DNA of 49,583 nt from a virus, in IMG/VR virus record IMGVR_UViG_3300030331_002167, positions 1-49,583 of that record; one strand, 5' to 3'. Under the pieces are notes generated by a model, which saw only the letters and a list, made by a program, of their open reading frames with translations, was not told the DNA's origin and searched no databases. Positions 6,825 through 47,000 of this stretch are shown here, one piece after another. The position numbers and the translations under genes are program-made. Every line of letters begins with the position of its first letter. Position 1 is the stretch's first letter.

Positions 6825-8372
6825 ATGCAAGAATTAAAGTTAGTTAAAAACCTGACTTTTGGCGAATATGCTAGAGGTCAGGTATTAACTGGCGTAGAAA
6901 AACTTACTAACGCGGTAGGATCTACGCTAGGCGCAAGTGGACAGTGTGTAATAATGGAAGACGGAAATGGCGAACCTGTTATAACTAAAGATGGCGTTAC
7001 AGTAGCAAACGCAATTACATTACAAGATCCTATAGAAAATATTGGTGCAACACTTGTCAAACAAGCTGCACAAAGAACTGTAAAAGACGCTGGTGACGGT
7101 ACTACTACAGCTACTGTAATAGCTAAAGCTATATTAGATGAAGCTAATCAGCACTCACTATTAGATGACGCTAGACAGATGAAAGATGGTATAAACGCTG
7201 GCGTAGAAAACGTTGTTAAGTATCTTAATAAAATATCTAAAAAAGTAACTGGATCAAGAATAAATCAAGTTGCTACTATATCTGCTAATAATGATAAAGA
7301 GTTAGGTAAAGTTATAGGTGATGCTTTCAAGTTAGTAGATGAAACAGGTATTGTAATGATGGAAACAAACGAACAACCTGAAACAGTAGTTGAATTAATT
7401 GAAGGAGTACAATACGACCAACCATTAAAAAATAATCATTTTATAACTAATAAAGAAAAAGGTACAGCAGAGCTTGATAATCCTTTGGTATTAATAGTAG
7501 AATCACAAATACCTAATATAAGGAAAATACAATCTGTACTAGAGTATGTTATAAAAAATAATAAAAGTTTACTTATTATAGCAGATGTAGATAATCAAGT
7601 AGTATCTGCCTTAGCCATGAATAAGTCAAAAGGAAATATTAAAGTTAATATAGTAGATGCACCTGTTTATGGATTAAACAAAAAAGATATGTTATCTGAT
7701 TTATGTGCAGTAACTGGAGCAACATTAATTAATGAAGACCTAGGAGATGATATGGATTTAATACAACCAGAGCATTTAGGTCAATGCGTTAAAGCTGTAA
7801 CCAATCATGAAGAAACTATATTACAAGTTGATTTATCTGATAAACCAGAAGTACAAGAAACAATTAATTTATTAGAGAGCCAGATAAAAGAAACTAAAAA
7901 TCCTAATATAATTATACGTTTAGAAAAACGTTTAGCTAAGTTAAAAGCTAAAGTAGCTACAGTAAAAGTAGGAGCTAATTCTGAAATAGAGTTAAAAGAA
8001 AAGAGAGATAGAGTAGAAGATGCTATATGTGCTACAAAAGCCGCGATTAAACAAGGTATAGTGCCAGGTGGTGGTATAGCTTTATTAAACGCCAGTATGC
8101 ATTTAAAATCAAAGTCAATAGGTGAAGAAGTGCTGTATCAAGCAATACGTAAACCATATGAACTTATACTAAAAAACGCAGGCGTAAAAGAATATAAAAA
8201 TCCAACTGAAAATGGTAAAGGATTAGATGTGGTTACAGGAAAAACGGTTGATATGGTTAAAGCCGGAATTATTGATCCTTTGCTTGTTACTAAAAGTGCC
8301 TTGCAAAACGCGGCTTCTGTAGCTACTACTATATTATCTACTGATTGTGTAATTAATAATATAAGAGCATGA
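6825..8372 (+). CDS. groEL: Phage-encoded chaperonin GroEL (Hsp60)
   Basis: A 515-residue type I chaperonin. The three catalytic aspartates of the ATPase are present: D56 in ITKDGVTVA, D91 in AGDGTTTATV and D399 in RVEDAICATKAA; the VPGGGIAL motif follows. The equatorial, intermediate and apical domains are collinear with bacterial GroEL. The glycine-methionine C-terminal tail is missing (it ends VINNIRA), accounting for part of the shorter length (E. coli 548). The substrate-binding helix region around residues 198-210 differs from the host consensus YLSPYF, suggesting a changed client preference. It would fold phage proteins in an ATP-driven cage with the GroES encoded directly downstream. 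Confidence 0.97.
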   Translation: MQELKLVKNLTFGEYARGQVLTGVEKLTNAVGSTLGASGQCVIMEDGNGEPVITKDGVTVANAITLQDPIENIGATLVKQAAQRTVKDAGDGTTTATVIAKAILDEANQHSLLDDARQMKDGINAGVENVVKYLNKISKKVTGSRINQVATISANNDKELGKVIGDAFKLVDETGIVMMETNEQPETVVELIEGVQYDQPLKNNHFITNKEKGTAELDNPLVLIVESQIPNIRKIQSVLEYVIKNNKSLLIIADVDNQVVSALAMNKSKGNIKVNIVDAPVYGLNKKDMLSDLCAVTGATLINEDLGDDMDLIQPEHLGQCVKAVTNHEETILQVDLSDKPEVQETINLLESQIKETKNPNIIIRLEKRLAKLKAKVATVKVGANSEIELKEKRDRVEDAICATKAAIKQGIVPGGGIALLNASMHLKSKSIGEEVLYQAIRKPYELILKNAGVKEYKNPTENGKGLDVVTGKTVDMVKAGIIDPLLVTKSALQNAASVATTILSTDCVINNIRA

Positions 8373-8629
8373 AAGCAGTAGGCAAGTATATAGTCATTAA
8401 TCCTATTAAAGAAGTTGATACTAAAACAGAAGGTGGTTTAATATTAGCTGAAAACCAAAGAGAAGATATTAGGTACAGAACAGCAGAGGTACTTGTTGTA
8501 GGTGATGCAGTGGAAGTTATAAAGCAAGGTGATAAAATCTATTATGATAAGTCTTCTGGCTTTAATATAGAAGTAAAAGGTAAAGTATTAAAAGTAATTA
8601 AAGAACACGATGTAGTTATAATATTATGA
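8369..8629 (+). CDS. groES: Phage-encoded co-chaperonin GroES (Cpn10)
   Basis: An 86-residue Cpn10 with the beta-barrel pattern (VINPIKEVDTKTEGGLIL near the N-terminus) and a mobile loop carrying the hydrophobic contact LIL after GG. VGDAVEVIKQGDKIYYDKSSG matches the conserved GDKV-type core. It is slightly shorter than bacterial GroES (about 97). It overlaps groEL by four bases (ATGA), so the order is groEL-groES, the reverse of bacterial operons. It forms the lid for the phage GroEL chamber. It also overlaps the next gene by four bases, placing both chaperonin genes in the late operon. Confidence 0.93.
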   Translation: MKAVGKYIVINPIKEVDTKTEGGLILAENQREDIRYRTAEVLVVGDAVEVIKQGDKIYYDKSSGFNIEVKGKVLKVIKEHDVVIIL

Positions 8630-9345
8630 GTTTTAGCAAAAAATTTAGAGATAAAAGTCCTATCAAAAAGGATGACGATGGAAACCCAATTATAGATTTT
8701 GTAAAAAAAGGGGTTAAGTCGCTTGCTGTGGGACCTGTTCCAACTTTAGCTGAAGAAGGAGGAAAGTTTATTAAAAGTCAACTAGCTAAAAATATAAATC
8801 CAATGGGTTATTATAATCCAGTAGAAAGAGTAACAAAAGCTGTATTAGGTAAAGCTGAGTCGGGTTCATACGCAAATCCTGTTAGTAAAGATCAAGGTGT
8901 GCTAGAAATGCAAGATTTGTTAAGCTTGATGATGACTGGAGAAATGAAAAATAACTCTTTAAAAGTTTCAAAATACAAACCAACTAACAGTAAAGATGCT
9001 AATGCTATTTATTATAATTCACCATCTACTGAAGACCGCTTAAGAAGATTAATAAAAAACAAAGCAGTTCAAACTGGTGTAGTAAATCATGGAGCAACAC
9101 TGGGAAACTATACTATTGATAGGGGTATAGACAAAGATGGAAGAGAATATTTTTCATATTACGATGTTTGGGATTTAAACCCTTTTGCGGCACCACCATA
9201 TAAATCTACTTCTTTAGACGAAATAGCTACAAAAGCTCAAGAAGTTATAGGTATTACACCTGCTGAAGTTTATGGAAGAGTATATGTAGATGAAGTAGTA
9301 GAAGAAACTTGGCAAGATAAAATGGAAAATAAAAATAAGCTGTGA
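8626..9345 (+). CDS. SP-tagged hypothetical protein, paralogue of the next gene at both ends
   Basis: 239 residues, not recognised. The N-terminus MSFSKKFRDKSPIKK is shared with the next gene through residue 13, and the C-terminus (EETWQDKMENKN) matches that gene's EETWQEEMERKN-like end. The middle is unrelated and lacks the HExxH motif of the neighbour. A small hydrophobic glycine/proline segment (SLAVGPVPTLAEEGG) sits near residue 30. It is coupled to groES by ATGA. The shared ends suggest handling signals, for example for packaging into the capsid or assembly on a common partner, around different cargo domains. Confidence 0.7.
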   Translation: MSFSKKFRDKSPIKKDDDGNPIIDFVKKGVKSLAVGPVPTLAEEGGKFIKSQLAKNINPMGYYNPVERVTKAVLGKAESGSYANPVSKDQGVLEMQDLLSLMMTGEMKNNSLKVSKYKPTNSKDANAIYYNSPSTEDRLRRLIKNKAVQTGVVNHGATLGNYTIDRGIDKDGREYFSYYDVWDLNPFAAPPYKSTSLDEIATKAQEVIGITPAEVYGRVYVDEVVEETWQDKMENKNKL

Positions 9346-9357
9346 AATATTAAAATT

Positions 9358-10404
9358 ATGAGTTTTAGTAAAAAGTTTAGAGATAAAAGCCCTATAAGAC
9401 AAAACGGTAATCCAGGAGATGAAAAAGTTAAAAAACTAAGAAAAAAACTTAGATCTCAATATAATCTGCCTTTAAGTCCTAAAGATGATTATCCAGATGT
9501 TAAACTTACAGACGATATGTTTAGTCCTTCACAAGACGCGGTAAGAAAGTGGAATCAAGCTAGATATGAAACAGGTAGATATGATGATCAATTAGGAGAT
9601 GGTAATTTAAAAAGACAAGAAATAAATTTAGCCTCTACACGTACTTTAAAACATCCTGATGAATATTATGATGAATATTATGAAGTAGTAAAAAAAGCTA
9701 AAAACTATAAAGATTTAGAAGGACTTATAGTGCCAGGCAACAATAATGAGTTAGGTATAGATAATTTTGAATACGTTAAGAAATATTTCACCAGTCCACA
9801 AGCTATAAAAAATTGGTATGATAATGCAAGAGCAAACCAATCTTTTATAGGGAAAATGTTAGGAACTGGAGGTATTGCAGGAATTTATAAACCTGCTACT
9901 CATACTACATTTACAAAACCATTAAGTTTTTTAGACAAGATAAATCCATCTACACAGCCTAGGTTTTCTACACAAAAGCACGAAGCAGCACACGCTGCTA
10001 GAGCCTTACCTCAAGATGATAAAATAACTGAAATTACTGGTTTTGTTCAACCTAAAGATTTAAACACAGATGCAGAACAAGGTGGATACCTTAATCGAGC
10101 AAATGAAATATACGCAAGATTAATGGCATTTAGATTAGACAATAATATAGATCCTAATCGAATATGGACTATGGAAGATATACCAGAGTTGAATGATAAA
10201 ATGAGAGGCTTTGATAAACTTAGACAGATAGGTGTAAAATATGAGGAAAAAGAGAATCTGCTTTCTCCAGGAGGTGTAGAGTACATACAAGTAGGAAAAC
10301 CTATATCTGACGAAGATTTATTAAGATTAATGAATGAAGTTGCTGCTAATTCACCACAAGAAACTTGGCAAGAAGAGATGGAAAGAAAAAATAATATTAC
10401 GTGA
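9358..10404 (+). CDS. SP-tagged putative zinc metalloprotease (HEAAH)
   Basis: 348 residues. The N-terminal tag MSFSKKFRDKSPIRQ repeats that of the previous gene, and the C-terminal EETWQ-type tail is shared. The central region contains HEAAH (residues 208-212) and, about 38 residues later, NEIYARLMAFR with E250, a plausible third zinc ligand, as in phage and gluzincin-like peptidases with HExxH...E spacing. A membrane segment is not evident. It could be a particle-associated protease, acting during maturation or after injection; the substrate is unknown. Its stop overlaps the GTG start of the next gene. Confidence 0.6.
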   Translation: MSFSKKFRDKSPIRQNGNPGDEKVKKLRKKLRSQYNLPLSPKDDYPDVKLTDDMFSPSQDAVRKWNQARYETGRYDDQLGDGNLKRQEINLASTRTLKHPDEYYDEYYEVVKKAKNYKDLEGLIVPGNNNELGIDNFEYVKKYFTSPQAIKNWYDNARANQSFIGKMLGTGGIAGIYKPATHTTFTKPLSFLDKINPSTQPRFSTQKHEAAHAARALPQDDKITEITGFVQPKDLNTDAEQGGYLNRANEIYARLMAFRLDNNIDPNRIWTMEDIPELNDKMRGFDKLRQIGVKYEEKENLLSPGGVEYIQVGKPISDEDLLRLMNEVAANSPQETWQEEMERKNNIT

Positions 10405-10829
10405 GACTTAGCTCTTCTGACTTAAAAGATCTTAAACTTTTAAAACATTATAGAATAATACGTAAATGGGCGTGCAAAACGTGTAATATTAAAGATGCGG
10501 ATCTTGAGTTACTGATATATCTCGATGCAATAGACTTCTTTACAAAAGATGATTTTAAAAAAGGTACGTACTCATATAGCTGGGACAATAGACGCTGGAA
10601 CAGATTATTGAAACAAGGGTGGATAGTTGTGTGGAGAGAGAGAAATCGCACTACCCAAAAATATCATATATATAAAGTTTCCTACAAGTGCAAACAGCTA
10701 ATAAGTCGTATGTACCGTATTATGTTAGGTGAAGAAGATATGCCTACAAAAACATTAGATAAAAACAATAGATATATTTATAAAGTAACAGCGCAAGCAA
10801 TACGTTACGCAAATAAAGATAAATTATGA
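10401..10829 (+). CDS. Putative winged-helix DNA-binding protein, GTG start
   Basis: 142 residues, beginning with GTG at 10401 inside the preceding stop (GTGA). It is basic and helical, with a pattern like a MarR-type winged helix: helix (LELLIYLDAIDFFT), recognition-like segment (DNRRWNRLLKQGWIVVWRER) and a beta-wing (NRTTQKYHIYKVSYKC). No zinc site is obvious, although several cysteines are present. Similar small proteins occur beside structural genes in marine Bacteroidota phages (family recollection). It may regulate late transcription or bind packaged DNA. The fold assignment is by pattern only. Confidence 0.5.
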   Translation: MRLSSSDLKDLKLLKHYRIIRKWACKTCNIKDADLELLIYLDAIDFFTKDDFKKGTYSYSWDNRRWNRLLKQGWIVVWRERNRTTQKYHIYKVSYKCKQLISRMYRIMLGEEDMPTKTLDKNNRYIYKVTAQAIRYANKDKL

Positions 10830-11032
10830 ATGAAAATATAGACCCAATTACTGGAATGCCTATGGATCCAAATAGAGCTGGTATGCCTGCTAGATCAATT
10901 AATGATTTACAGCCTATTAATACTATACAAGATCCTGGTATGCAATCAGCGCAACAAGCTGCTGCTTTTCAAAGATTTAATAATGTAGCTCAATACATGC
11001 CGCCTCCAGCAATGATGAAGAATAAAAATTAA
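10826..11032 (+). CDS. Small proline/methionine-rich protein (68 aa)
   Basis: 68 residues of low complexity, rich in P, M, Q and N (DPITGMPMDPNRAGMPARS). It is probably disordered. It overlaps the previous gene by four bases (ATGA). No family recognised; its Gly-Met-Pro style resembles disordered linker proteins found among internal virion genes, but no role can be assigned. Confidence 0.6.
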   Translation: MNENIDPITGMPMDPNRAGMPARSINDLQPINTIQDPGMQSAQQAAAFQRFNNVAQYMPPPAMMKNKN

Positions 11033-11044
11033 AAATTTTAAATA

Positions 11045-11203
11045 ATGAAAGCAACAATAGGATCAGGTATTAAATTACCATGCGGCTGTAAGCCAGCAGG
11101 CACTAGAACAATGAGGACTAACAATACTACCGTTATGCCTACATTAAGAAAAATTGATAATATAGAGTACAAAGGCAATGCTGTACTCAACGCTAACAAA
11201 TGA
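11045..11203 (+). CDS. Small cysteine-containing protein (52 aa)
   Basis: ATG at 11045 to TGA at 11201-11203 encodes 52 residues starting MKATIGSGIKLPCGCKPAGT. The CGC segment at residues 13-15 could bind metal or form a disulphide. The rest is polar and basic. It overlaps the next gene by four bases (ATGA) and follows the previous one after 12 bases. Not recognised. Confidence 0.6.
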   Translation: MKATIGSGIKLPCGCKPAGTRTMRTNNTTVMPTLRKIDNIEYKGNAVLNANK

Positions 11204-11355
11204 TCGGTATAGACGACTTGAAGTTGTATTGTTTAAATATAACTTCATTTACTATAGCTAGTTTAGATTGGTTAGAGCCATTTTTAAAAGTAATGCTATT
11301 AGTAGTTACTATAGGTTATACTGTACATAAATGGTGGAAACTTAAAAACAAATGA
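11200..11355 (+). CDS. Small single-pass membrane protein, holin-like candidate
   Basis: 51 residues from ATG at 11200 to TGA at 11353-11355, coupled by ATGA on both sides. Residues 29-43 (LKVMLLVVTIGYTVH) form a transmembrane helix with a preceding amphipathic hydrophobic stretch, and the C-terminus is basic and tryptophan-rich (KWWKLKNK). It lies directly upstream of the amidase, where small lysis membrane proteins are usually found, so it may be a pinholin, antiholin or signal-arrest helper. A separate two-helix holin candidate lies at 17075-17527. Confidence 0.6.
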   Translation: MIGIDDLKLYCLNITSFTIASLDWLEPFLKVMLLVVTIGYTVHKWWKLKNK

Positions 11356-11765
11356 GGCAGATAAAAGAAATTATTGTACATTGCTCAGCAACTAGAGAAG
11401 GCCAAGATATACCAGTAGATACTATAAAACAATGGCATGTCAATGGTCGAGGTTGGAGCGACATAGGCTATCATTTCTACATCGATATATACGGAGAAAT
11501 ACATAAAGGTAGAGACATAGCTAGAATCGGGGCTCATTGCTCAGGGCATAACCGTAATTCTATAGGTATATGCTATTGTGGAGGCGTTGAGGCAGATGGC
11601 AAGACCCCGAAAGATACTAGAACAGAAAAACAAAAAGAAGGTTTACTTGCGGTACTTAGAACTTTAAAAGCTATGTATCCGCTCGCTACTATATATTCAC
11701 ATAACGAGTTTGCTAATAAAGCATGCCCTTCATTTGATGCAACTAATGAGTACAAAAATCTCTGA
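11352..11765 (+). CDS. T7 lysozyme-type N-acetylmuramoyl-L-alanine amidase (endolysin)
   Basis: 137 residues, the usual length of single-domain Amidase_2 endolysins. It begins MRQIKEIIVHCSA and retains the T7 lysozyme residues: zinc ligands H10, H117 and C125 in SHNEFANKACPSFD, with Y40 in GYHFYI and K123 also present. It cuts the bond between N-acetylmuramic acid and L-alanine in peptidoglycan, releasing progeny. There is no signal peptide, so export depends on a holin. It is flanked by a membrane micropeptide gene (overlap of four bases) and a coiled-coil membrane protein gene (overlap 20 bases). Confidence 0.93.
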   Translation: MRQIKEIIVHCSATREGQDIPVDTIKQWHVNGRGWSDIGYHFYIDIYGEIHKGRDIARIGAHCSGHNRNSIGICYCGGVEADGKTPKDTRTEKQKEGLLAVLRTLKAMYPLATIYSHNEFANKACPSFDATNEYKNL

Positions 11766-12156
11766 ATCAACCGAATTTAAAATAGATATAAAAACCGTAA
11801 TTGGTATCATAATGGTAACAGCTTCTTTTGTAGGTATGTATTATACATTACAGGCAGATATTGAAGAAGCAAAAAAATTACCACCTATAGAAGTTAAGCG
11901 TTTAGAATATGATCTTAAAGAACAATGGAACAAAGAAAACATTGATAATTTAAAAGAGAGAGTAGACATGCTTGAACAAGTAGATGATGTTACTTTTGAA
12001 GAAATAAATATATTATCTACACTTATTAAGGATGGTACTGAAAATGATGGTAAGTTAGAAGAACTTAACAGGCAATTAGAAGAATTAAAAAATAGAAAAC
12101 CTAAAACAACTGTTATAGTTAAAGAAGTGGAAGTAAATAAGAAAAACCGTAGATAA
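11746..12156 (+). CDS. Membrane-anchored coiled-coil protein, spanin-like candidate
   Basis: The ATG at 11746 is chosen, as an upstream TTG start lies deeper in the amidase gene; this gives 136 residues. A hydrophobic anchor (IKTVIGIIMVTASFVGMYYTL, about residues 13-33) is followed by a long charged coiled coil (EELNRQLEELKNRK-type heptads) and a basic C-terminus. This topology matches the inner-membrane spanin (Rz/i-spanin) that links the membranes after amidase action. No outer-membrane lipoprotein partner is visible. A structural tail or scaffold role is the alternative. Confidence 0.55.
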   Translation: MSTKISESTEFKIDIKTVIGIIMVTASFVGMYYTLQADIEEAKKLPPIEVKRLEYDLKEQWNKENIDNLKERVDMLEQVDDVTFEEINILSTLIKDGTENDGKLEELNRQLEELKNRKPKTTVIVKEVEVNKKNRR

Positions 12157-12476
12157 TGAAAAAACAAAGTATAGTAAGAAAAATATTAAGCGGATCACCT
12201 ATAAAAAAGTATACTCAACCTTCTTTAGTATTAGACACTAGTGGTGGTGGAACTTTAGCTTCGGCGTCTGAAGGCGTTGCAGATGCTATTAGTGATAAAA
12301 TTACTCCAAAAGACGATGATGAAGATAACGACACTGACACTGAACCTACTCAAAAAGTAGTAAATGTTAAGCAATTTATTAAAGGTGCTAAAAAGAAAGG
12401 TGTAGACGTTTCTCCAGAACAAGCTAAAACTATAGCTCAAGCAGCTAAAATGATGGGAGATTTAAAATATAAATAA
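12156..12476 (+). CDS. SP-tagged small protein with acidic middle
   Basis: 106 residues. The start overlaps the previous stop by one base. The N-terminus is basic (MKKQSIVRKILSGSPIKK) with the SPIKK tag at residues 14-18. The middle is acidic (KDDDEDNDTDTEPT) and the C-terminus looks like a small helical domain (GVDVSPEQAKTIAQAAKMMG). It continues the run of SP-tagged proteins. Function unknown; the charge layout resembles DNA-interacting or internal virion proteins. Confidence 0.65.
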   Translation: MKKQSIVRKILSGSPIKKYTQPSLVLDTSGGGTLASASEGVADAISDKITPKDDDEDNDTDTEPTQKVVNVKQFIKGAKKKGVDVSPEQAKTIAQAAKMMGDLKYK

Positions 12477-12486
12477 AAATTAAACA

Positions 12487-12651
12487 ATGAAAAAAAGTCC
12501 AGTTAAAGCATTTAAGTATAGCGGTGATTCACCTGCTATGAGAAAATTATCTGCATCTTGTAAAGCTGCAGCTAGAAAAAAGTTTGATGTTTATCCTTCT
12601 GCATATGCTAATATGTGGGCCTCTAAACAACAGCGTCAAGGTAAGTGTTAA
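12487..12651 (+). CDS. Small basic SP-tagged protein (54 aa) with cysteine ends
   Basis: ATG at 12487 to TAA at 12649-12651 gives 54 residues beginning MKKSPVKAFKYSGDSPAMRK. There are two SP motifs (SPVK, SPAMRK) in the first 20 residues. The remainder (ASCKAAARKKFDVYPSAYAN and MWASKQQRQGKC) is a conserved-looking Cys-to-Cys module: similar sequences recur in proteins of marine phages and some large eukaryotic viruses (family recollection). It stops one base before the next ATG. A DNA-binding or internal virion role is suggested by charge only. Confidence 0.65.
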   Translation: MKKSPVKAFKYSGDSPAMRKLSASCKAAARKKFDVYPSAYANMWASKQQRQGKC

Positions 12652-13116
12652 ATGAAAAAAAGAGGTGGAGCATATCGCGGCACTTTAAAAGCTAGAGTAT
12701 CTAAACTATATGGCGGTGATGTAACTGTAGATAAAGCAAGGAAATTAAAAAAAAGAAAAAACGCTACGTCTAGAGATAAACAATTAGCTAACTGGTTTAT
12801 TAATATGCATACTGCTAAAAGTCCTGTAACAAAAGATCCTAAAGTAGGTACTGGTAAAAAACCAAAAGGTTCAGGGAGAAGATTATATACAGATGAAAAT
12901 CCTAAAGATACTGTTAGTATAAAGTTTGCTACACCTGCTGATGCTAGAGCTAGCGTTAGAAAAGTATTAAACTCTGGTAAGTCTTATGCTCGTAAAATGC
13001 AAATATTAACTGTTGGTGAACAAAGGTCAAGATATTCTAAAAAACCTAAAAGACAACAACAAAGTATATTTAAAAACGGTAAAATTAGATTAAGAAAAAG
13101 TAGAAAAAATGTTTGA
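12652..13116 (+). CDS. Highly basic SP-tagged protein (154 aa)
   Basis: 154 residues, strongly lysine/arginine-rich. The first part (MKKRGGAYRGTLKARVSKLY) and the helical region that follows resemble basic phage proteins seen in marine genomes. KSPVTK lies at residues 56-61. The C-terminal third is a basic, glutamine-containing tail (KKPKRQQQSIFKNGKIRLRK). A nucleic-acid-binding function is likely from composition alone. It overlaps the PAP2-like gene by eight bases. Confidence 0.65.
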   Translation: MKKRGGAYRGTLKARVSKLYGGDVTVDKARKLKKRKNATSRDKQLANWFINMHTAKSPVTKDPKVGTGKKPKGSGRRLYTDENPKDTVSIKFATPADARASVRKVLNSGKSYARKMQILTVGEQRSRYSKKPKRQQQSIFKNGKIRLRKSRKNV

Positions 13117-13648
13117 TAATTTTGATTATACTAATTTTAAAAATATGCCACCTCCAAAAGATGGTTCGCTTAGAAGTTTATCAGAAATAAGAGATTTAAA
13201 TAACATACCTATCGATAAAGATTTTGTTAAAAAAAGAGATAACATCTATGGATCTTTTAAAGAAGTAGCAGACAAAAATAATATTACACTAGATAAAAAA
13301 GAAATAAAAGATTTAACTGAAGGTTCTGCTAGTGTGATAATGAAACTAAAAAAATATTATAATAGACCTAGACCAAAAACACAAGCTAAAACTTTTGGTA
13401 TTGATTTAGAAAATATAGAACTTGCTTCTATGAAAACACCATCTTATCCATCAGGTCACTCAGCTCAAGGTATATTAATAGGTAATTATTTAGCTGATAA
13501 ATATGATAACAATGAGTTTTTACAAGTAGGAAACGAAATATCAGATGCTAGAAATGTAGCAAGAGCTCATTATAAATCTGACTCTGATATGGGTAAAAAA
13601 TTAGGACAAGCTATGTATAACCACTTAAAACAAAATGGAAGCGCGTAA
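13109..13648 (+). CDS. Soluble PAP2-family phosphatase
   Basis: 179 residues with all three PAP2/class A acid phosphatase motifs: K79-x6-R86-P87 (KLKKYYNRPRP), PSGHS at 114-118, and a variant of SRx5HxxxD (A147-R148-x5-H154-x3-D158), where alanine replaces the usual serine. Catalytic histidines are H117 and H154. No membrane helices or signal peptide are seen, unlike lipid-phosphate PAP2 enzymes. It would hydrolyse phosphate esters, with an unknown substrate such as nucleotides or phospholipid head groups. It lies inside the SP-tag cluster but lacks the tag. Confidence 0.85.
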   Translation: MFDNFDYTNFKNMPPPKDGSLRSLSEIRDLNNIPIDKDFVKKRDNIYGSFKEVADKNNITLDKKEIKDLTEGSASVIMKLKKYYNRPRPKTQAKTFGIDLENIELASMKTPSYPSGHSAQGILIGNYLADKYDNNEFLQVGNEISDARNVARAHYKSDSDMGKKLGQAMYNHLKQNGSA

Positions 13649-14312
13649 ATTAAAAAAAGTATCATCACAGCTTAAGAAATCAGTTAAAGCTCATGCAAAG
13701 CAAGCTAATATAATTGATGGTTATTTAAGTAGCATAAAAGACAAAAGTCCTGCTATGAAAAAAGTTAAAGCAAAAGGTGGTGGTACTAAAAAAGTATGTT
13801 TACCTTTAGCTAAAATTAGAAGCATGAGCTCTAGTGAAAAAGCTAAAATAGTTAGAGCTAAAAGAAAAGCTGGTGCAGCAGGTAAATACAAAAGAAGTTC
13901 TAAAAGTAATACTACAGGTACAGGTAGTGGCGGTAGTTTAAAAAACTGGGTAAAGCAAGACTGGAGACAAGTTGCTAACCCTCATTTAAAGTGTGGTGAA
14001 AAAGCACCAGGTGAAAAAAAGTCACCAGCTAAAAAAGCAGAGCCTAGAAGAACTATTGGTAGAGGTAAAAATTTTAATAAAGCAAACGATACTGGTACTG
14101 GTGCTGCAGCTGGTGGTGGTATGACACAGAAAGGTGTTAATGAATATAAAAGAAAAAATCCTGGTAGTAAATTAAAAACAGCTGTAACTAAAGATCCATC
14201 TAAACTAAAGCCAGGAAGTAAAGATGCAAAACGTAGAAAATCATTTTGTGCTAGATCAAGAGGTTGGAAAAGTAAAAGAGGTTTAGCAGCTAGAAGAAGG
14301 TGGAATTGTTAA
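13635..14312 (+). CDS. Lysine-rich SP-tagged protein with WNC C-terminus
   Basis: 225 residues, very basic. DKSPAMKK occurs at residues 36-43 and EKKSPAKK near residue 130. Two cysteines in the N-terminal half and the C-terminal pattern KSFCARSRGWKSKRGLAARR then RWNC resemble a conserved tail of basic phage proteins (recollection). Glycine-rich linkers (GTGSGGS, GTGAAAGGG) separate the basic blocks. It probably condenses or binds nucleic acid, or is packaged in the head. It overlaps the PAP2 gene by 14 bases. Confidence 0.6.
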   Translation: MEARKLKKVSSQLKKSVKAHAKQANIIDGYLSSIKDKSPAMKKVKAKGGGTKKVCLPLAKIRSMSSSEKAKIVRAKRKAGAAGKYKRSSKSNTTGTGSGGSLKNWVKQDWRQVANPHLKCGEKAPGEKKSPAKKAEPRRTIGRGKNFNKANDTGTGAAAGGGMTQKGVNEYKRKNPGSKLKTAVTKDPSKLKPGSKDAKRRKSFCARSRGWKSKRGLAARRRWNC

Positions 14313-14322
14313 TATATATAAT

Positions 14323-14547
14323 ATGTGGGAATTAACTAAAAAATATTTTAAAGACGTTTGGACTCATTTATGGGGTAAAACAGATATAGATGAAAAAGCT
14401 AAAGCTATTATAGATGAGGCTAAAGATAGATATGAAGAAACATCTAAAGAAATAAAAGATGTAGCAAAAGCTATAAAAGAAGTTGGTAATCAAGTTGGTG
14501 ATGTTGGTGGAGCATTAAAAGGTAAAAAACGTAAAGGTAGAAAATAA
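14323..14547 (+). CDS. Small amphipathic helical protein (74 aa)
   Basis: 74 residues. The N-terminus is aromatic (MWELTKKYFKDVWTHLWG), followed by a long charged helix (AKAIIDEAKDRYEETSKEIK) and a very basic tail (GKKRKGRK). The amphipathic pattern could bind membrane or form a coiled coil. It lies between SP-tagged basic genes, and its stop shares one base with the next start. No family recognised. Confidence 0.6.
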   Translation: MWELTKKYFKDVWTHLWGKTDIDEKAKAIIDEAKDRYEETSKEIKDVAKAIKEVGNQVGDVGGALKGKKRKGRK

Positions 14548-14906
14548 TGGCTTTTAAATTAAAACCACCTTATAAAATAGAAACAACGCCTATATATAGA
14601 GTTGACGATGATCCAAATGTTTTAGGACGTGCTAATAATAACGGTACTATAACTATAAATAAAGATATAGAAGATCCTAAAGAATTAGAAGAAATAAAAA
14701 AGCATGAAGAAACTCATGTAAATCAGTTTAAAGACTTTAACAAGTCAAACGGTAAAAAAGGACTAGACTACAGCGACGACTACATTATGTGGAACGGTGT
14801 TAAGTATCCTAGAAAAAATGGTAAAATAAAATACAAAGGCAAGTGGTATCCAGAAGGAAGCAAGTCTTTTCCTTGGGAAGCTGAAGCCTATAAAACAGAG
14901 AAATAA
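14547..14906 (+). CDS. Small zinc metallopeptidase-like protein (HEETH)
   Basis: 119 residues. HEETH at 53-57 followed by a Tyr/Trp-rich segment (DYSDDYIMWNGVKYPR) and PWEAEAYK near the C-terminus matches the layout of small phage HExxH proteins whose third zinc ligand is the Glu of a PWExEAY motif (E111 or E113). The family is common in Bacteroidota and their phages (recollection). No signal peptide is present. The substrate is unknown; virion maturation or cell-wall processing are possible. It is tightly packed between basic SP-tagged genes. Confidence 0.7.
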   Translation: MAFKLKPPYKIETTPIYRVDDDPNVLGRANNNGTITINKDIEDPKELEEIKKHEETHVNQFKDFNKSNGKKGLDYSDDYIMWNGVKYPRKNGKIKYKGKWYPEGSKSFPWEAEAYKTEK

Positions 14907-16291
14907 TGAGTTTTAAAAGCTTAGTAAATAAATTAATGAAAGAAGGCAAAAGCGAGGAAGCTGCCATAAAGATTGCTGGTAAAGTTGCAAATGCTAAAAG
15001 GAAAGGTGCTGGATCAGGGCCTACTGCTAGACAAAAAGCAAGAGCTAAATCTCCTGTACCTAAAAGAAAAAAAGGTATGGAGATACGCGGTGTAGAGCCA
15101 GATAAAAAATCTACATATACTAATAAAAGAGGCAAGACTGTAGAGTTAAAAAGATATAAAAGTAAAGAGTATAAAAGAACTACAGATCCTGATGCTACTA
15201 AAGAAACTAGAAGAGCTAGTAGAAGATCAAATACATTAGAGCTTTCTAAAACTAAAACAAAAAAAGACGGAACAACTAAAACAAGAGTCAAAAGAGCCCC
15301 TGGCGGCACTAAAAGAGCTGAAAGATTAACTAGACAGTTTAAAAGAGGTGCTAGAAAAGAGGGAGCTTCTGACGTAATAATAGAAAGAAAATCACCAACA
15401 ACAATGAAAAAATCACCAAACAAAATGAAAAAGTCTATGGCTACTATGAAAGATAAGTCAATGGCTAAGATGAAAAAGTCACCAGCTAAAAAACCTTTAA
15501 CTGGTAAACAAAAAAATTTACCTGAACATCTTAAAAAAGCTATATTAGATGCACCTGCTAAAATGCTTAGTAAGTCTGGTATGAAAATGATGAAAGAAGG
15601 TTCACCGGCGCAGTTAAAAGAAACAAAAGCTCAAATGAAATCTAGATTCAAAGATGAGAAAGCAAAGCGTAAGACAGCTAAGAAAGCTATAAGAAAAGGG
15701 GCTTATCCTGAAAACGCAGCCAGAGATGCAGGTATTGCATTAGACCTTTCAAAAGGAAGTAACTATAGTCAAGTATTATCTTCTAGAGCTACAGCAAAAA
15801 ACAAAGCGAAGCAAGAAGGAACAACTGTAAGAAAGTCTAAGAAAAATTTTGTAAAGGGTTTTAATGAAAGTCAAGAAGCAGCTAATAATCCTGGTAGATT
15901 AAAAGTTTCTCTTTCAGGAAAAATAAAAGAAGTACCTACTAAAATGAAAGCGCCAGTTAAATTATCAAAACAAAAAGTCGAGCAAGATTTATCTAGAAAT
16001 GCTATAGCTGATTATAAAGCTGGTGATAAAAAAGCAGGTAATTATGAGAAGAAAAAAGCTTTAGAATTAGCAGCTGGTGAATCAGGTGTTATGATGAAGA
16101 AGTCTCCAGGTATGATGAAAACACCTATGATGAAATATGATAACTCACCTGCTTTAATTAAGAAAGCACCTACAATGATGAAAACAAATCAAATGGGTGG
16201 TGCCGTCGCTGCTAAAGATTCTGCTGCACCGGCCAAACAACTTAAAAAATTAGGTGGTAGTATACTTTCTAAACACTTCAAATCTAATTAA
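14906..16291 (+). CDS. Very basic SP/MKKSP repeat protein
   Basis: 461 residues, extremely lysine-rich. AKSPVPKRKK occurs at about residue 47, a block of short repeats lies at residues 167-195 (MKKSPNKMKKSMATMKDKSM and so on), and a C-terminal methionine-rich block has MMKKSPGMMK and NSPALIKKAP. Long helices (residues 1-35 and 240-330) and glutamine/lysine segments suggest a mostly disordered or coiled protein. There is no catalytic motif. Composition fits a DNA-condensing or internal virion protein, the clearest example of the SP-x-KK cluster. Confidence 0.7.
   Translation: MSFKSLVNKLMKEGKSEEAAIKIAGKVANAKRKGAGSGPTARQKARAKSPVPKRKKGMEIRGVEPDKKSTYTNKRGKTVELKRYKSKEYKRTTDPDATKETRRASRRSNTLELSKTKTKKDGTTKTRVKRAPGGTKRAERLTRQFKRGARKEGASDVIIERKSPTTMKKSPNKMKKSMATMKDKSMAKMKKSPAKKPLTGKQKNLPEHLKKAILDAPAKMLSKSGMKMMKEGSPAQLKETKAQMKSRFKDEKAKRKTAKKAIRKGAYPENAARDAGIALDLSKGSNYSQVLSSRATAKNKAKQEGTTVRKSKKNFVKGFNESQEAANNPGRLKVSLSGKIKEVPTKMKAPVKLSKQKVEQDLSRNAIADYKAGDKKAGNYEKKKALELAAGESGVMMKKSPGMMKTPMMKYDNSPALIKKAPTMMKTNQMGGAVAAKDSAAPAKQLKKLGGSILSKHFKSN
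15404..15490 (+). repeat. Tandem MKKSP-like codon repeats
   Basis: Within the 14906-16291 gene, units of about 21 to 24 bases beginning ATGAAAAA(A/G)TC recur imperfectly and encode MKKSPNK, MKKSMAT, MKDKSMAK and MKKSPAK. Drifted unit sequences point to old slippage or selected duplication rather than a recent expansion. Confidence 0.65.
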
Positions 16292-16292
16292 A

Positions 16293-17078
16293 ATGGCTTT
16301 TAAAATGTCGCCTCTTGGCAAAAAGAAATGTCCATATTCACCAATGCAGAAGAGGGGTTTAATAAATCCCTCTCCTGTTAAGTTGGATGATAATACTGTA
16401 AGTAGCACCGGCGCTGACACACAAATACAGCGAACTAAAGGAGTTAACACGGTTTTTGGTGGAAGAGATGCTGATAGTGAAAGAGCGGATTTAAATAGTA
16501 GAACAAAAGATTTCAATAATAGTCCAGAAGGTAGACAAATGGCTAAAACTCTTCAAGCTATGGGTGGAACACTGGGCACAGGAGTAAAAGGGTCTAAACA
16601 TAAAGACGGTAAGATTTATTTTAGTTTTCAAGATGCAGAAAATAATAAACAATATTTTACTAAAGAAGATTATGATAATTTAATGGTAAATTATAAAAGA
16701 GCAAAAAATGCAACTGTAGGTAGAACCTCTTTAATGGAGTCAAGAGCAAGTGATGGACAACAAGCTACATACATGAATCAAGACGCAATGACTAATTTTG
16801 TAAATACAAAAGATGCAGTCGGTAGAGGCGAAAGAAGTGTAAATATAAATAGAGATCAACCTGATTATACTGGTCCACATTATGGAAGTGATGAATACTA
16901 TGCTAAGGTAGATGCTGATAATATGAAGAAATATGCTCACCGAGATGATGGAGGTTATGTAGATAAAGATAGTAATGCTGGGAAGCTTCCTCTTAAGTAT
17001 GATAATTTTGGTTTTTTACTAGACCATCACGGGAGAAGAGTTGAGAGAAGAGGAGCCTTTAATTATAGACCTAAATGA
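16293..17078 (+). CDS. SP-tagged hypothetical protein (261 aa)
   Basis: The ATG at 16293 is chosen, one base after the previous stop; an earlier in-frame start would overlap that gene. The N-terminus MAFKMSPLGKKKCPYSPMQK carries two SP tags, and SPVK follows near residue 28. The middle contains glycine-rich and strand-like segments (GTLGTGVKGSKHKDGKIYFS) that fit a small structural domain, and the C-terminal part is tyrosine- and aspartate-rich. It overlaps the holin gene by four bases. Not recognised beyond its tag. Confidence 0.65.
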   Translation: MAFKMSPLGKKKCPYSPMQKRGLINPSPVKLDDNTVSSTGADTQIQRTKGVNTVFGGRDADSERADLNSRTKDFNNSPEGRQMAKTLQAMGGTLGTGVKGSKHKDGKIYFSFQDAENNKQYFTKEDYDNLMVNYKRAKNATVGRTSLMESRASDGQQATYMNQDAMTNFVNTKDAVGRGERSVNINRDQPDYTGPHYGSDEYYAKVDADNMKKYAHRDDGGYVDKDSNAGKLPLKYDNFGFLLDHHGRRVERRGAFNYRPK

Positions 17079-26294: not shown

Positions 26295-26315
26295 TTAATT
26301 ATTATATTATATTAT
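26295..26315 (+). promoter_or_regulatory. 21-bp AT direct repeat before scaffold gene, copy A
   Basis: A TTAATTATTATATTATATTA-type sequence lies immediately before (and touching) the ATG at 26314. The identical 21 bases recur at 29286-29306 just before the 29310 gene. It may be a late promoter element or translation enhancer. AT-richness makes chance recurrence possible, but both copies occupy the same position relative to a start. Confidence 0.4.
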
Positions 26316-27447
26316 GTCAGAAACACAAGAAAAAGTAGGCGCAGATAAAAGCGACTTAAAAGTTAAAATAAAAAAGCCTTCTCTTATGAAAAAAGATAAA
26401 GGCCCTATTAAATTAGATTTAAGTAAAAAAGAAGAAAATGCCGTTCAAGAGCAAACAACAGATGAAGTACCTGTTCGCGACGAACCCACAATTAGCGAAG
26501 AAGTTCCTCAAGAAAACATCGAAAAAACAGATGAACAACCTACCGAAGAGATCAAGGAAGAAGTAGTAATTGAAGCTACTGAAGAAACAAAAGAAGAGCC
26601 AACAGAGGTAGAAAAACCTGAAATAGTAGTTCCAGAAAATTTGCATAAATTAGTGAATTTTATGAATGAAACAGGTGGAAACATAGAAGATTATGTAAGA
26701 TTAAATACTGACTACACTGATGTTAATCCAGATACATTATTAGTAGAGTACTATAAAACTACAAAACCTCATTTAGATAAAGAAGAAATTGAATTTTTAA
26801 TAGAAGATAAATTTTCTTACGACGAAGATGAGGACGAGAAAAAAGAAATTAAAAAAAAGCAGCTTGCTGCTAAAGAAGAACTTGCGAAAGCTCGAAAGTT
26901 TTTTGAAGATACAAAAAAACAATATTATGACGAGATCAAAGTTAGATCAAGCGTAAATCCGGATCAACAAAAAGCTATCGATTTTTTCAATAGATACAAC
27001 AAAGAACAAAAAGTAGCCAATGAACGTCACGCTAGGTTTGAAAAATTAACTGAAGAGTTATTTACAGATTTCAAAGGTTTTGATATTAATGTAGGTGACA
27101 GAAACTTCAAATATAAAATAAACAATGCGCAAGACGTGAGTAAAAGGCAATCTAACTTAAACACTTTTGTTAAGAAGTTCTTAAACAAAGAAGGTGAAGT
27201 TGTAGATACTGCCGGTTACCATAAGGCTATTTATGCCGCAGAAAACATAGACTCAATAGCTAAAAATTTTTATGAGCAAGGCAAAGCCGATGCTACTAAA
27301 GAGATAATGGCTAAGTCTAAAAATATAGATGTAGAACCTAGAGCTGCTGCTTCAGGTGATATATTTATAAATGGTCTGCGTGTAAAAGCTATAAGTGGTG
27401 CTGATAGTTCTAGGTTGAAATTTAAAAAAACAAATAAAACAACTTAA
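26314..27447 (+). CDS. Capsid scaffolding protein candidate
   Basis: 377 residues. Residues 30-110 are a very acidic, low-complexity stretch (EEVPQENIEKTDEQPTEEIK). A charged coiled-coil core follows (about 170-270: KKKQLAAKEELAKARKFFED), and the C-terminus is basic (KFKKTNKTT). The position between portal and major capsid protein and the charge pattern are those of an internal scaffold that is removed during maturation. No protease motif is visible in the gene itself. Confidence 0.7.
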   Translation: MSETQEKVGADKSDLKVKIKKPSLMKKDKGPIKLDLSKKEENAVQEQTTDEVPVRDEPTISEEVPQENIEKTDEQPTEEIKEEVVIEATEETKEEPTEVEKPEIVVPENLHKLVNFMNETGGNIEDYVRLNTDYTDVNPDTLLVEYYKTTKPHLDKEEIEFLIEDKFSYDEDEDEKKEIKKKQLAAKEELAKARKFFEDTKKQYYDEIKVRSSVNPDQQKAIDFFNRYNKEQKVANERHARFEKLTEELFTDFKGFDINVGDRNFKYKINNAQDVSKRQSNLNTFVKKFLNKEGEVVDTAGYHKAIYAAENIDSIAKNFYEQGKADATKEIMAKSKNIDVEPRAAASGDIFINGLRVKAISGADSSRLKFKKTNKTT

Positions 27448-41037: not shown

Positions 41038-44000
41038 ATGTATATATTTAAAGATAAAGCTTATACACAAGCACAGTTAGAAGAAATAGCTAAAAGAAAA
41101 GGTTATACTTTTGAAGAATTAATGCTATATAATCCTGAGATACAAGGCTTAAAAGACGAAGATATTGTGGAAAAGGATATAGCCGAGGCAACGTTAAATC
41201 CTGCGAGTGCGTCGGCAAACCCTACAGCAGGAGATACGGAATTCAAATCGGAAGAGGTTTCTTTGGATACACCATGGAAACCAACTAAATTAACTAAAGA
41301 TGGAGAAGTTGATCATGAATATTATAGAGCGTTAGGCACTTTTAGTGGTTTTCAAGTAGCTCCAGACTTATCTCCAGAAGAGAGAGAAAACGAATATAAT
41401 TCATATTTAAACTGGCAAGAAACTTCACTCGCTGATCCTGGTCAAATGATGTTACAGCAGCAGAGGGAAATGGATCAAAAAGTTTTAGCTAATAATATAG
41501 AAGATCTTAAAATAAGAAATGATATAGGTAAACAAATTGATTTAAGTTTTTCATCATTAGGTGAAATAGAAAATCCAGAAGAATTTTTTGAAGATTCTAA
41601 AATGATTACTGGTGATATAATAAATCAAGACGTAGTAATAAAAGGTTTAATCAATGATGTTAACAAACGTATAGAAGCTTATAATAAAAAAGAAATCGAT
41701 GCTATACAGAAAGAGTTTGATCTTGATATTAAAAAATTAGTTTCTCAAATAGAAACTAAATATGACTTGTCTACTGCTGATGGAATTGAGGCTGCTGAAA
41801 AAGAATTAGAAAAATTATACAACGCTAGATTAGCTGTCGCTAATCAAGCAATACAAGAAGCGCAGAATAGAGGTAATAAATTCCAAGAAGATCAAATAAA
41901 TAGTTTATTTAGTAGTAAAATATACAATGGTAGAGTTAACTATTTAAATGGCATTATCAATGAAAAAATAGATCCTTTATGGAAACAGTGGCAAAAAGAT
42001 AATGCTGATGGATTAGCTAGCTTTTATGGTTTTAGTAATCCAACTGATCAAACAATAGCAGGTATATATGAAATAGGAAAAAACTGGGAGGCCGCTAAAG
42101 TTTCAATAGCGCAGTTAGGTATTAGTGGCGTTAAACAAGAAATGGAAATGTTAAATCAAGCGCTTCCTACTACAACTACAATAACTCCTAAAGGTGAGGT
42201 TAAGCAACTAGAACGTGATCCAGATAGAATAATATATGTATATCCTGATGGTACTATAGATTATGAAAAATCTAACCTTCGAAGACCTGCAACATTATCC
42301 CAAGGTACTGGTACTCCTAGACAAGGAAGATTTACTTTAACTGGTCAAATAGACACAAGCAAGCAAGGTGCGTTTGGTGAAGTCTTTAGTAAGCCTATGA
42401 CTTACAAAGATTACATTGCTATGCAGGAAAGAAAAATTGAAAAGTTTAAAGATGATGTAAAAATAAACTTAGAAGAAATACAAGAGTTTGATAGATTAAT
42501 AAATTTAGTAGAGGCGCCTGAACTTTTTGATGAAGACGGCGCAACTGTTAGTGACGTTATAGGCGTTGTATTTAGAATGGCACCTCAATTAGGCGCATCT
42601 ATAACTGGTGCTGCTTTAGCTCCAGCTACAGGTGGATCATCTCTTGTAGCTTCAAGTATGTTTATGTTTGCTAATGAATATGGATCTGCATATTGGCAAG
42701 GTGTTACACAAAATTTAGCTGAAGAATTAAATAGGCAACCTACTAACGAAGAGATAATGGAAGCTATGGTTAGTGATAAATATCAAAATCAAGGTGAAGC
42801 AGCGGGTTGGGCTACAGTGTCAGCTTTATTAGAACAAGGAACAGGTTTAAGAGGATCTGCAGCTTTGAAAGCTTCTAAAAAATCATTATTAAATTTTGCT
42901 AAAAAACTTGGTTATAAAGATTTAAAAGAGTTTATTACAAAAACTAATAAGAATCAAATAATTAAAATTATAAAAGAAAATTCTAAAAAAATAGCAGACA
43001 AAGGTTTAGAAGCTTTTCAAGAAGGTGGTGTTGAAGTATTGCAGGGAGCTGGACAAGCAGCGGCTGTTAATGCAGCTAAAGGTGATGCAGCATTTGCAAA
43101 TGTAAATATATTAGAAGATTTTAAAGAAGATTTTGGTGGTGGTGTGGCCGCTACAATTGCTATACCAGGTTTTGGTAAAATGATGCGATTGTCTAGAAAT
43201 AGTATTAGTTACTTATCTGAACAAGCTTATAAAGTATCTATTGGTAAAGTTAAAGCAGAGCAAAGAGATCAATTTTTTAAAGATGCTGGTAATGTATTAT
43301 TACAGCTTAGAAATAATAATAAAATAAGCGAAGAGCAATATCAAGCTGAATCAAAAAGAATAGCTAATTTAAAAAATAAATCTAAAGATATTCCTAAAGA
43401 TTATTCATTTCAAGCAACTCAACAAACTTTAGATTTAATGCTTGAAAGAGATAAATTAGAAGCTAAAATAAAAAATGGTGATCCTGCTCTTACTATTCCT
43501 GATAAAGAAAGAGTTAAAGCTATCAATGCTGAACTATTAGAAATATTAGTTAATGAAGATAATAGAATTAAATCTGATATAACTAAACAAAATATTGATA
43601 AGCAAATGAGCCAAGTACTACCAGCTAAAGGTATGGAAGTACCTACTGATAGTAGAATTATAATTGTCAATGAACAAAACGTAGATGCTTTAGCTCAACA
43701 ATATGGAGTAGCTCCAGAAGTAATTTTAAACCCAGATGAAGATACAGAAGGAGGTTATATAGCAAAAGAAGGCGTTATATTAATGTCAGAAACAGCTGCT
43801 AAAGACGTTATAAAGCATGAAGGGTTACATAACTATCTAGACATAGCTTTTAATAAACCAGGTAATGAGAATTTAGTTTTTGGTATGGCAGAAATTTTGA
43901 TGGAGAAAATGCAAAATCAAAATCCTGAAATATACAACGCTCTTCAAAAACATTTAAATTCATATAGAAAAGATCCTAAATATTCTCCAGCTAAAGTAGC

Positions 44001-47000
44001 AGAAGAAGTTATTACTTATTATGGTCAGTTAAAAGATCAAGGAGCTTTTAATGCTAATGAAAACAAACCTTTATTACAAAGTTTTATTGATACTATAAAA
44101 AGTTTATTAGAAAATTTAGGATTTAAAAATGTAGAAATAAACGAGCAAAACGTAGACAGAATAATAGATAATTATGTAACTAATATTGAAGGAAAAGGTT
44201 TAACTACTGCGCAAAGGAAAATAGCTAGAGGTGATGTAACTATAGCGCCTGAAATAGAGGCAAGAGGAGAAACTAGCATTTTAAGAGATCCAACACCTCA
44301 AACAACAGTACAAGAAACAGTACAAGAAACTGTGCAAGAACCTTTAGCTATGGCTGCGGCTAAAAAACTAAATATAGAAACTACTAATCAGATAAACGAA
44401 GATATAAAATCTTTACAGCAAGAAATAAAAGAAAATGAAGAAGTAGCAAAAAGATTTAATAAAGAACCTGAGCCTACCGCTAAACAGCAAAGATTAGAAA
44501 ATAAAATTAAAGAAGATTTATCACCTACTATTGAAGCGTTTGTAGAATCTCAAACTAAAAGACTATACGATCCTATACCTAAAAACATAATTCCTGAAGG
44601 AGTTACTAGAGATTATTTTAAAAATACTATGCGTAATGATGTAGAGTCAATGGTGTTTAGTGAGTATGAAGTAGGCAAACAAGATATAGAAAAATTTATA
44701 GTTAATAGAGGTTATTTAAGAGCTAACAGTTTAGCTGAAACATTAGGTATACCAGGAGTAGAACAAGGAGTAGCTGTAAATATAGATGAACAAGTAAATT
44801 TAGCAGCTGATGATCCAACACCAAAAGCAGAAGATAAAAAACCTAAACCTACTAAAAGAGGTAAATTACCTAGAGAGTTTCCTGAAATATTTGATCAAAA
44901 TTTAAAAGATGATTTTGAAACTGCAGCATTTGAAATATTAGAAAGTGATGTTCCAGATGTAGATAGTAAAGATTTTAAAAGCGTAGTAACAGATATATTT
45001 AGAGGTAAATTAAATGAGTCAGTAAAAAAGAAACTAGGCGGTGGTAAAAATTATGAGTTTGCTATTAAAAAGTTAGCTCCTAAAATGAAAGAGATGTTAC
45101 CTGTCCAATGGTTTGTTAGGATAGAAGGTCAAACAAAACCTGAAGATAGATTATTTACTAATCCACCTGTTAAATTAACTAAGCAAGAAGATATTTACGC
45201 TGCTAAAAGAAGAGATGACGTGTATGTAGAAAATACAGCTCAAGGAGTTAATTTATACACTTTTAAAGACTTTGATCCTAAAGTATTAGCTGATTATCTA
45301 TTAGCTCCTCCTATAAATCCTGAAACTGGAGCGCGTAGTGGATTAAGAGGAACTAGAAAAACAGCTGTTACAGAAGGCGTAGTAGATACTATGGGCGAAG
45401 ATGTAGTTCCTCAAACTGTAAAACAAGTACCTAAATTAAAAGATCAATTAGGAAAGATAAGCGAGAAGATGCGTAGAGATCCTGATTTTTTAGCTGCTAA
45501 GAAATTTAAAGTACAAGAAAATATAGATAAAAAAGTTAAACAAGCAGGAGGTAAAGTTATTAAACCAGGTAAAGATGGTGTTGATAGAATAGTAGAATTT
45601 TTTACTGAAGGTGATGGCTTAGAAATATTTAGTAATTTCTTATTTCAAGATACAGGTAAGCGAGGTAAGTTTCAGTTTTTGACAAGTTCGGTTTTAAGTA
45701 ACGCTGGTAATAGCTTAAAAAGAGCTTTAGGTAGAGGCTTTCCTTTTATAGGTAACTATGACAAAGGATTAGAAGCTGCTGTTAATAATGTCATGCAAAG
45801 AAATCCTGAGATGACTAAAGAGCAAGCTACTGTTGAAGCTGAAAAAATAATGGCTGAAACTAAAAAAGCTCTTGAAGATGGAACTCTATTTGAAACATCT
45901 GAATTACAAGATAGAGTACGTGAAGCTTTAACAGGTAAAGAAAAAAAATTTACACCTGATCAGATTCGTAAAATGAATCTAGCTATAGATGGTCAAACTA
46001 GTAATAAGTTAAACAATAACTTAAATAATATAAAAGATATAAATGAAGGTAAAGATCTTTTATTAGATTTATTTAGAGAAGCTTATGTTAAAAATCCTAA
46101 AAATCTAGATGTATTAGCTTTCATATCTTATAATCAAAACTCTAATACAAATCCATTTAGAAACTTAGCTACAGTATTAGGTAAAGAATTAGGTATTTTA
46201 ACTAAAGAACAATACGAAGAACATACTTTACCATTTGGTGAATTTGCTAATACATTGATAACTGCTTTAGCTTCAGATGATAAAACTTGGCAAGGATTTA
46301 AAAATTGGGCTAAAGACAATTACTTTCAAGAAGTAATATCTAAAGGAGATGTTAAAGAAGGTATATTTAAAACTAGAGAAATATTAGATCACCCTACTAG
46401 ATCTTTAGGCAAAGATGGTAAAACTGTTTTACCTGACTGGGCTTCTAAATCTGAAATGCATCCTTTACTAAAACAACATATAAGAGAAGCTATAGCTGGA
46501 ACTAGAGACTGGTCTGATGTTGTATCAGCAGATATTAGAAAATATAATGAGTACAAATCTGAAAGAGGCTATGTAAATCCTAATACAGCTAATAGATTAG
46601 GACTAACAGATGCAGAAAGATACAATGTAGTTGTTCCTAAATCACTGTCACAAGATCCTAATGTAATATATTTACAGAATCAGTTAATATACGACCAGCT
46701 TATAGGTAAAATAGATAGTAAAAAAGCAAAACAAAGTATTGATTTATACGTTAAAGAGCAAGCTAAAGGTCAACCTAGTTTAGCTACTACGCAGCAAAAG
46801 GCTAATACAGGTAACGCGATAGAAGTTAAAGAGTCTGGTGTTATGGTTGCTAGTAAAAAGATGGACATGTCAACTTTACTAGATAAAGCTAACAATTTAG
46901 ATAAGGCTTTAAAGATAGCCAATGCTATAGATAAACCTGTTAAAAAAATTAGAATATTTGATTTTGATGACACTGTAGCTCGAAGTAATAGTTTAGTATT

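Follow-up and report, generated by a model that had tools for sequence, protein, structure and literature searches.

The virus record IMGVR_UViG_3300030331_002167 of IMG/VR comprises 49,583 bases, the whole of which was analysed and is referred to here as the window. The phage it represents is related to Cellulophaga phage phi38:1 (Pervagoviridae), Elemovirus and Manatee Spring phage ctfjg026: its TerL is 62% identical to that of ctfjg026 and 46% identical to that of the elemovirus, and its capsid protein is 51%, 39% and 35% identical to those of ctfjg026, the elemovirus and phi38:1, respectively. The hosts of the cultured relatives are Flavobacteriia. Between groEL/groES (6825-8629) and TerL (21694) lies a block in which an earlier examination of the letters alone (the sequence-only reading) had noted eight genes with short motifs of the form S-P-(hydrophobic)-x-K, here termed the SP motif; every copy that it named translates at the gene to which it was assigned (Table 1). 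The genome had also been described as AT-rich, and its GC content is indeed about 31-32%. The motif proves to be a real tag, which is confined to accessory late genes, placed just before protein modules, transferable between unrelated modules and genome-specific in form.

Table 1. Tagged genes, motif copies and untagged neighbours in the GroES-TerL block of the window
Feature	Position	Strand	Description
Tagged gene	8626..9345	+	Leader MSFSKKFRDKSPI(KK); remainder homologous to the C-terminal half of a relative's SLT transglycosylase protein
Motif RDKSPIKK	8647..8670	+	In gene 8626
Tagged gene	9358..10404	+	13-residue leader in common with 8626; HEAAH metalloprotease-like core; weak relatives in Crassvirales (cr125_1, cr114_1, cr108_1)
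Motif RDKSPIRQ	9379..9402	+	In gene 9358
Untagged amidase	11352 (inside block)		No SP motif
Tagged gene	12156..12476	+	SGSPIKK near N-terminus, 12189-12209
Tagged gene	12487..12651	+	MKKSPVK 12487-12507; DSPAMRK 12526-12546, right before the SACKAAARKKF-DVYPSAYANMWASK module
Tagged gene	12652..13116	+	AKSPVTK 12814-12834, where two modules join; the modules are separate genes in relatives
Untagged neighbour	13109..13648	+	Soluble PAP2-superfamily phosphatase-like; K-x-RP, PSGH and SR-x5-H-x3-D motifs conserved
Tagged two-module gene	13635..14312	+	DKSPAMKK 13740-13763 before GGGTKKVCLP module; KKSPAKK 14016-14036 before DUF6321 (PF19846) module
Gene without SP motif	14323 (inside block)		
HExxH (zincin-like) gene	14547..14906	+	Leader MAFKLKPP without SP; relatives have MAFKMKSP; family in all 11 genomes compared
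Tagged, strongly basic gene	14906..16291	+	AKSPVPK 15044-15064; KSPxxMK repeat block about 15386-15613
Tagged gene	16293..17078	+	Leader MAFKMSPLGKK; SPMQK 16338-16352; SPVK 16371-16382

Enrichment of the motif was assessed against within-protein shuffles. The pattern SP[IVAMLF].?[KRQN] occurs 15 times in the GroES-TerL block of the window, where 1.8 occurrences are expected (0 of 100 shuffles reach 15), and 3 times downstream of TerL, where 2.8 are expected; the reversed dipeptide PS is not enriched in the window. Because the motif was chosen after viewing the window, the real test lies in other genomes, and two sets were used: 56 loci made up of relatives and the window, and 10 near-complete related phage genomes together with the window (11 genomes). 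Genes were simple open reading frame calls, classed as early (opposite strand), core (TerL onward, plus very long proteins) or accessory late. In the 56 loci the block proteins, passed through a rough non-redundancy filter that still leaves window-like proteins in the set, hold 71 sites against 14.8 expected, and the downstream module holds 13 against 12.9. Across the 11 genomes the accessory late genes have 73 sites (23.5 expected), the core genes from TerL to the ejection protein are at background (33 against 29.4) and the early genes are depleted (4 against 12.3), with the PS[..] control flat in all three classes; these shuffles count each protein as independent, though the relatives have common ancestry. 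The effect does not depend on the window, as this supplies just 10 of the 56 motif-bearing accessory genes. The sites are also biased towards the N-terminus, 41 of 105 SP sites falling within the first 30 residues where 19 are expected. Chance or composition as the source of the motif is ruled out by the shuffles, the reversed motif and the early and core controls. The sequence-only reading had proposed looking for clustering of the motif in one locus of related genomes, which is what was found, in accessory late genes only; the outcome that it named as contrary, occurrence at background frequency across lysine-rich proteins, was not borne out by these comparisons or by the leader counts given next.

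The SP motif often stands within an N-terminal leader, M-A-[FY]-[KI]-[MQL]-K-x-[SN]-P-[LFMI], with variants that include MAFKMKSPL, MAYIQKNNPL and MAFKLKPP. Proteins starting M[AS][FY][KITVS][MQLK] are encoded by 33 of 395 accessory late genes, where 0.35 would be expected, as against 2 of 108 in the core class and none of the 355 early genes; the pattern was written after seeing examples in the same genomes, and its absence from the 355 early genes is the fair control. A scan of IMG/VR for MAFKMK[ST]P found 63 stretches, most of them with genes of the same phage group nearby and the rest mostly short. A DNA-pattern test of leader specificity was set aside: the swapped control MAFKMKPS matched 32 stretches against the 63, and this control is not clean because its matches are also leader variants (MAFKMKPCSP, MAFKMKPSPF) of the same phage group. 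The tag is predicted to be disordered, with a predicted local distance difference test (pLDDT) score of 50 over the first ten residues.

Could the leader be a neutral or translation-enhancing start sequence, spread by recombination and having no function at the protein level? The leaders of 8626 and 9358 have 13 residues in common with three synonymous DNA differences, and the two genes are alike over about 40 bp around the start; AAA-rich start codons could, moreover, favour translation. Elsewhere, however, the residues stay while synonymous codons vary. Three adjacent genes of one relative (G002) begin MAFKMKSP with codons that differ synonymously, the leader standing on three genes in a row with unrelated modules (L119/G002), and such differences between copies in one genome indicate that conservation acts on the amino-acid sequence. 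Copies that lie inside proteins, where modules join, are unable to affect initiation, and early genes do not use the leader, so that an origin of this kind is highly improbable. The genes 8626-9345 and 9358-10404 also share a C-terminal ETWQ[DE]xMExKN, with middles that are unrelated; ETWQ was considered as a general C-terminal tag and dropped, being present in these two genes only. The claim that the tagged proteins are otherwise unrelated thus holds for most of them, the exception being this pair, with its common leader and C-terminus.

The leader is fused to unrelated modules: the HExxH family (14547), the KVWPSAYASG family (12487), the GGGTKKVCLP family (N-terminal half of 13635), CWKGY modules and the phi38:1 gp080 family. 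Of the 16 distinct members of the 12487 family that were scored, 14 have the SP motif upstream of the module (one of these, L006, is doubtful), although the preceding sequence varies. Each of the two modules of 13635 has its own motif in front, and the same modules are separate tagged genes elsewhere. A 553-residue protein of one relative (G009 61939) again has a motif ahead of each module: SPLKQ precedes an SLT transglycosylase domain that scores above the curated cut-off for PF01464, and SPFKQ precedes a homologue of window 8626. The SP motif was not found on the homologues of these modules in T4-like cyanophages and pelagiphages, that of 12487 included, and hence the tag belongs to the phage group of the window and not to the modules. 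Enzymatic passengers, which had been predicted from the window, are represented by the tagged SLT lytic transglycosylase of G009 and by the zincin-like HExxH family. The SLT transglycosylase domain is common among virion-carried enzymes, and the transglycosylase passenger fits such an enzyme. Among the papers available to the literature search, none was found on DUF6321 or on such a motif. The untagged PAP2-type protein (13109-13648) keeps its three signature motifs in ten sequences, and no SP tag was seen in the members listed.

The presence of the HExxH family raises the possibility that a phage protease, perhaps the HExxH protein itself, recognises or cuts the tag and so matures head-associated proteins, their collection in the head being a side effect. 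The family is encoded within the block in 11 of 11 genomes, and tags are found at module junctions, where cutting would free the modules. Yet there are no conserved cleavage-like residues beyond SP-hydrophobic, and the motif is lacking in the core head proteins. The HExxH model (pLDDT 86, leader disordered) matched zincin-like names in the PDB (IrrE, selecase, ArdC), all with E above 1, so that no fold was assigned, and we regard the protease explanation as unlikely.

The flanks of SP sites are genome-specific. In non-homologous genes, the likeness of flanks within a genome exceeds that between genomes by 2.7 BLOSUM units (0 of 2000 label permutations). The corresponding z is 6.5, whereas controls within these genes (PS, NP, TP, SG and random positions) lie between -0.5 and 2.1. 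The resulting dialects include RK[TS]SPLN in G001, MAFKMKSP in G002 (for example MAFKMKSPFKK), MAFKMKG in G008 and DKSP[IA] in the window (for example MSFSKKFRDKSPIKK); RK[TS]SPLND is the tag of one genome. Such a pattern would be expected of a label that a genome-specific receptor reads, and recombination of leaders within a genome could add to the pattern, as the 8626/9358 pair shows some copying at the DNA level.

The sequence-only reading likened the motif to the SPKK type of minor-groove binder, under which the tagged proteins would be histone-like condensing proteins and the motif a DNA contact. The genome is AT-rich, tandem SPxK repeats occur in some proteins (14906, L073), and tagged proteins are more basic than their untagged neighbours, with a median net charge per residue of 0.053 against -0.005 (p=0.0008, tag windows removed); the description of the set as mostly very basic therefore stands as a tendency, to which individual proteins are exceptions. 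The motif itself does not follow the SPKK rule of basic third and fourth residues (S/T-P-K/R-K/R). At the position after SP, F, M, L, A and V are over-represented, whereas K occurs at 0.51 times the expected frequency and R at 2 of 222 sites; since this third residue is hydrophobic, minor-groove binding is rejected as the general role of the motif. Non-basic dialects such as SPLND and SPFALS, the typical single copy near the N-terminus in place of arrays, and the occurrence of the motif on enzyme domains likewise make a DNA-contact role improbable, although several very basic tagged proteins may bind DNA by other means.

A link to the virion comes from Cellulophaga phage phi40:1, in which gp069, gp077 and gp080 are encoded upstream of TerL and were deposited with the note 'annotation based on experimental MS/MS proteomics analysis' (MS/MS, tandem mass spectrometry). 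Like many tagged proteins, gp069 and gp080 of phi40:1/phi38:1 are small and very basic; unlike them, they have no SP tag in either phage. The gp080 family is tagged in relatives of the window (L094, G005, G007 and G009) and untagged in G003, phi38:1, the elemovirus, Panino and a gut phage. Homology to gp080 of phi40:1 thus supports a putative virion location for one tagged family, which does not imply a causal role for the tag. In KC821614.1 the structural proteins of phi38:1 are annotated by similarity to 'phi18:1'; phi40:1 was apparently meant, as the MS/MS notes sit there, and phi18:1 is an unrelated 39-kb phage (PMC11946311).

A close parallel is offered by phage T4, whose small internal proteins are diverse and have just one short N-terminal peptide in common; this capsid targeting sequence (CTS) directs them into the head (PMC3012670). 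The tag resembles the CTS in being a short peptide, mostly N-terminal, that is common to otherwise unrelated small proteins. It differs in sequence, as MKT[FY]xEF (ipI starts MKTFKEF, ipIII MKTYQEF) is not matched by the leader MA[FY][KI][MQL]K-x-[SN]P; the window group has SP-hydrophobic-x-K and MA[FY]K[MQ]K, which also occur internally where modules join. Furthermore, the window phage is not T4-like but a podovirus of the phi38:1/Elemovirus kind, known here from its genes, with putative packaging and cleavage. Several of the modules recur in the cyanophage family T4-GC0119 (S-P4 AYR01841, S-SSM4 CYXG_00074), where one chain holds the 12487 module, an SLRDWF...WVQ stretch like part of 13635, CWKGY modules and the DUF6321-like module of 13635, but as one long protein and with no SP tags. 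This family is annotated 'structural protein' in S-P4 and called hypothetical elsewhere (PMC3037559); a match between it and Sau3AI was set aside as probably spurious. Its linkers VSFSDFQEKAQ and PFQTFQEEAK (L181:5035-6624, L222:1047-2234) resemble the T4 CTS (ipIII MKTYQEFIAEA). Crassviruses, which are also phages of Bacteroidota, carry much protein cargo in head and tail; for phi-crAss001 (gp45-gp50) the part of that account on cargo describes large ejection and RNA-polymerase proteins, and there reports no shared tag (PMC10172136). A homologue of window 9358 lies between the portal and major head protein genes of crAss phage cr125_1 (L226:11842-12954) and is HExxH-like; read with table 11, its frame is interrupted by several stop codons, as would be seen in a phage that recodes a stop. 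At the far end of the window, 41038-49500 encodes one 2,820-residue putative ejection protein with an HEGLH motif.

By analogy with T4, the best explanation would be that the tag is a docking peptide which targets proteins to the virion, as the CTS does, but is unrelated to it in sequence. We put at roughly 0.55 the probability that the SP motif and leader form a docking peptide on accessory late proteins, the set of which changes and which are collected into the virion by a common phage-encoded receptor and ejected with the DNA. The phage would place an address tag on these proteins, one per module; the common receptor, most likely a core head component (capsid, scaffold or portal), would gather them while the particle assembles, and at infection they would be ejected together with the DNA. 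Whilst the tag and its distribution are observed, we infer that a receptor recognises it, that the tagged proteins enter the virion and are ejected, and what the passengers do. A partner outside the capsid, such as the adjoining phage GroEL/GroES or a host assembly factor, might instead gather late proteins at the site of assembly. The block does adjoin groEL/groES in the genomes compared, but GroEL/GroES is also present in the elemovirus, in ctfjg026 and in the tagless genome G003, and a partner of this type seems improbable.

In genome G003 (L203-L206) the tag is missing from six of the seven module genes at once, which counts in favour of the docking peptide; this genome also serves as a natural control for a receptor search. 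In most relatives the putative scaffold (window 26314-27447 and homologues) has a conserved N-terminal [FL]K[IMV]K and a C-terminal DSS[KR]LKxK, and those of L015, L017 and L028 contain GRPRK/GRPKK stretches that resemble AT-hooks. Many scaffold candidates have FK[IM]K, which was considered as a shared docking site and not adopted, because G002 and G005 use the MAFKMK leader yet lack it.

Several observations weigh against the docking-peptide explanation. None of the accessory gene families is both shared by every tagged complete genome and missing from tagless G003, so that this comparison gave no clean receptor candidate, and the likeness of the scaffold FK[IM]K to the leader does not follow tag use. 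SP tags were not found in the cultured relatives phi38:1 and elemovirus, and in Crassvirales the tag was not seen, nor SP enriched, in the one 24.5-kb head-gene region of the gut genome cr125_1 that was examined. The MS/MS virion notes concern untagged phi40:1 homologues and not tagged proteins themselves, and a gp080-family member can enter virions without a tag, that of phi40:1 being untagged. The phage collection that was searched contained no cultured member of the tagged clade, taken as a TerL identity to the window of about 70% or more; its nearest record is at 62% and its nearest isolates are at 46%. Some tagged proteins are not basic. The definition of the tag is still loose, given that the relatives G004 and G008 have the leader without SP, and the strict SP pattern is present in only 1 of 19 HExxH proteins of the accessory set.

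If the docking-peptide explanation is correct, it would be possible, though we advance this more tentatively, that marine Bacteroidota phages possess an undescribed cargo-addressing system, in which a genome-specific dialect co-evolves with a phage receptor and loads exchangeable modular proteins (basic DNA-associated modules, lytic transglycosylase, metalloprotease-like) into the virion. Given the dialects, one phage's tag would be expected to work poorly in another phage, which would make the receptor findable, and the tag would be a small peptide with which proteins could be loaded into phage heads. An address of this kind, for which the parallel is the targeting sequence of the T4 internal (anti-restriction) proteins, would give a sequence rule that predicts which of the uncharacterised proteins in this group of marine phages ride in the virion and enter the host first.

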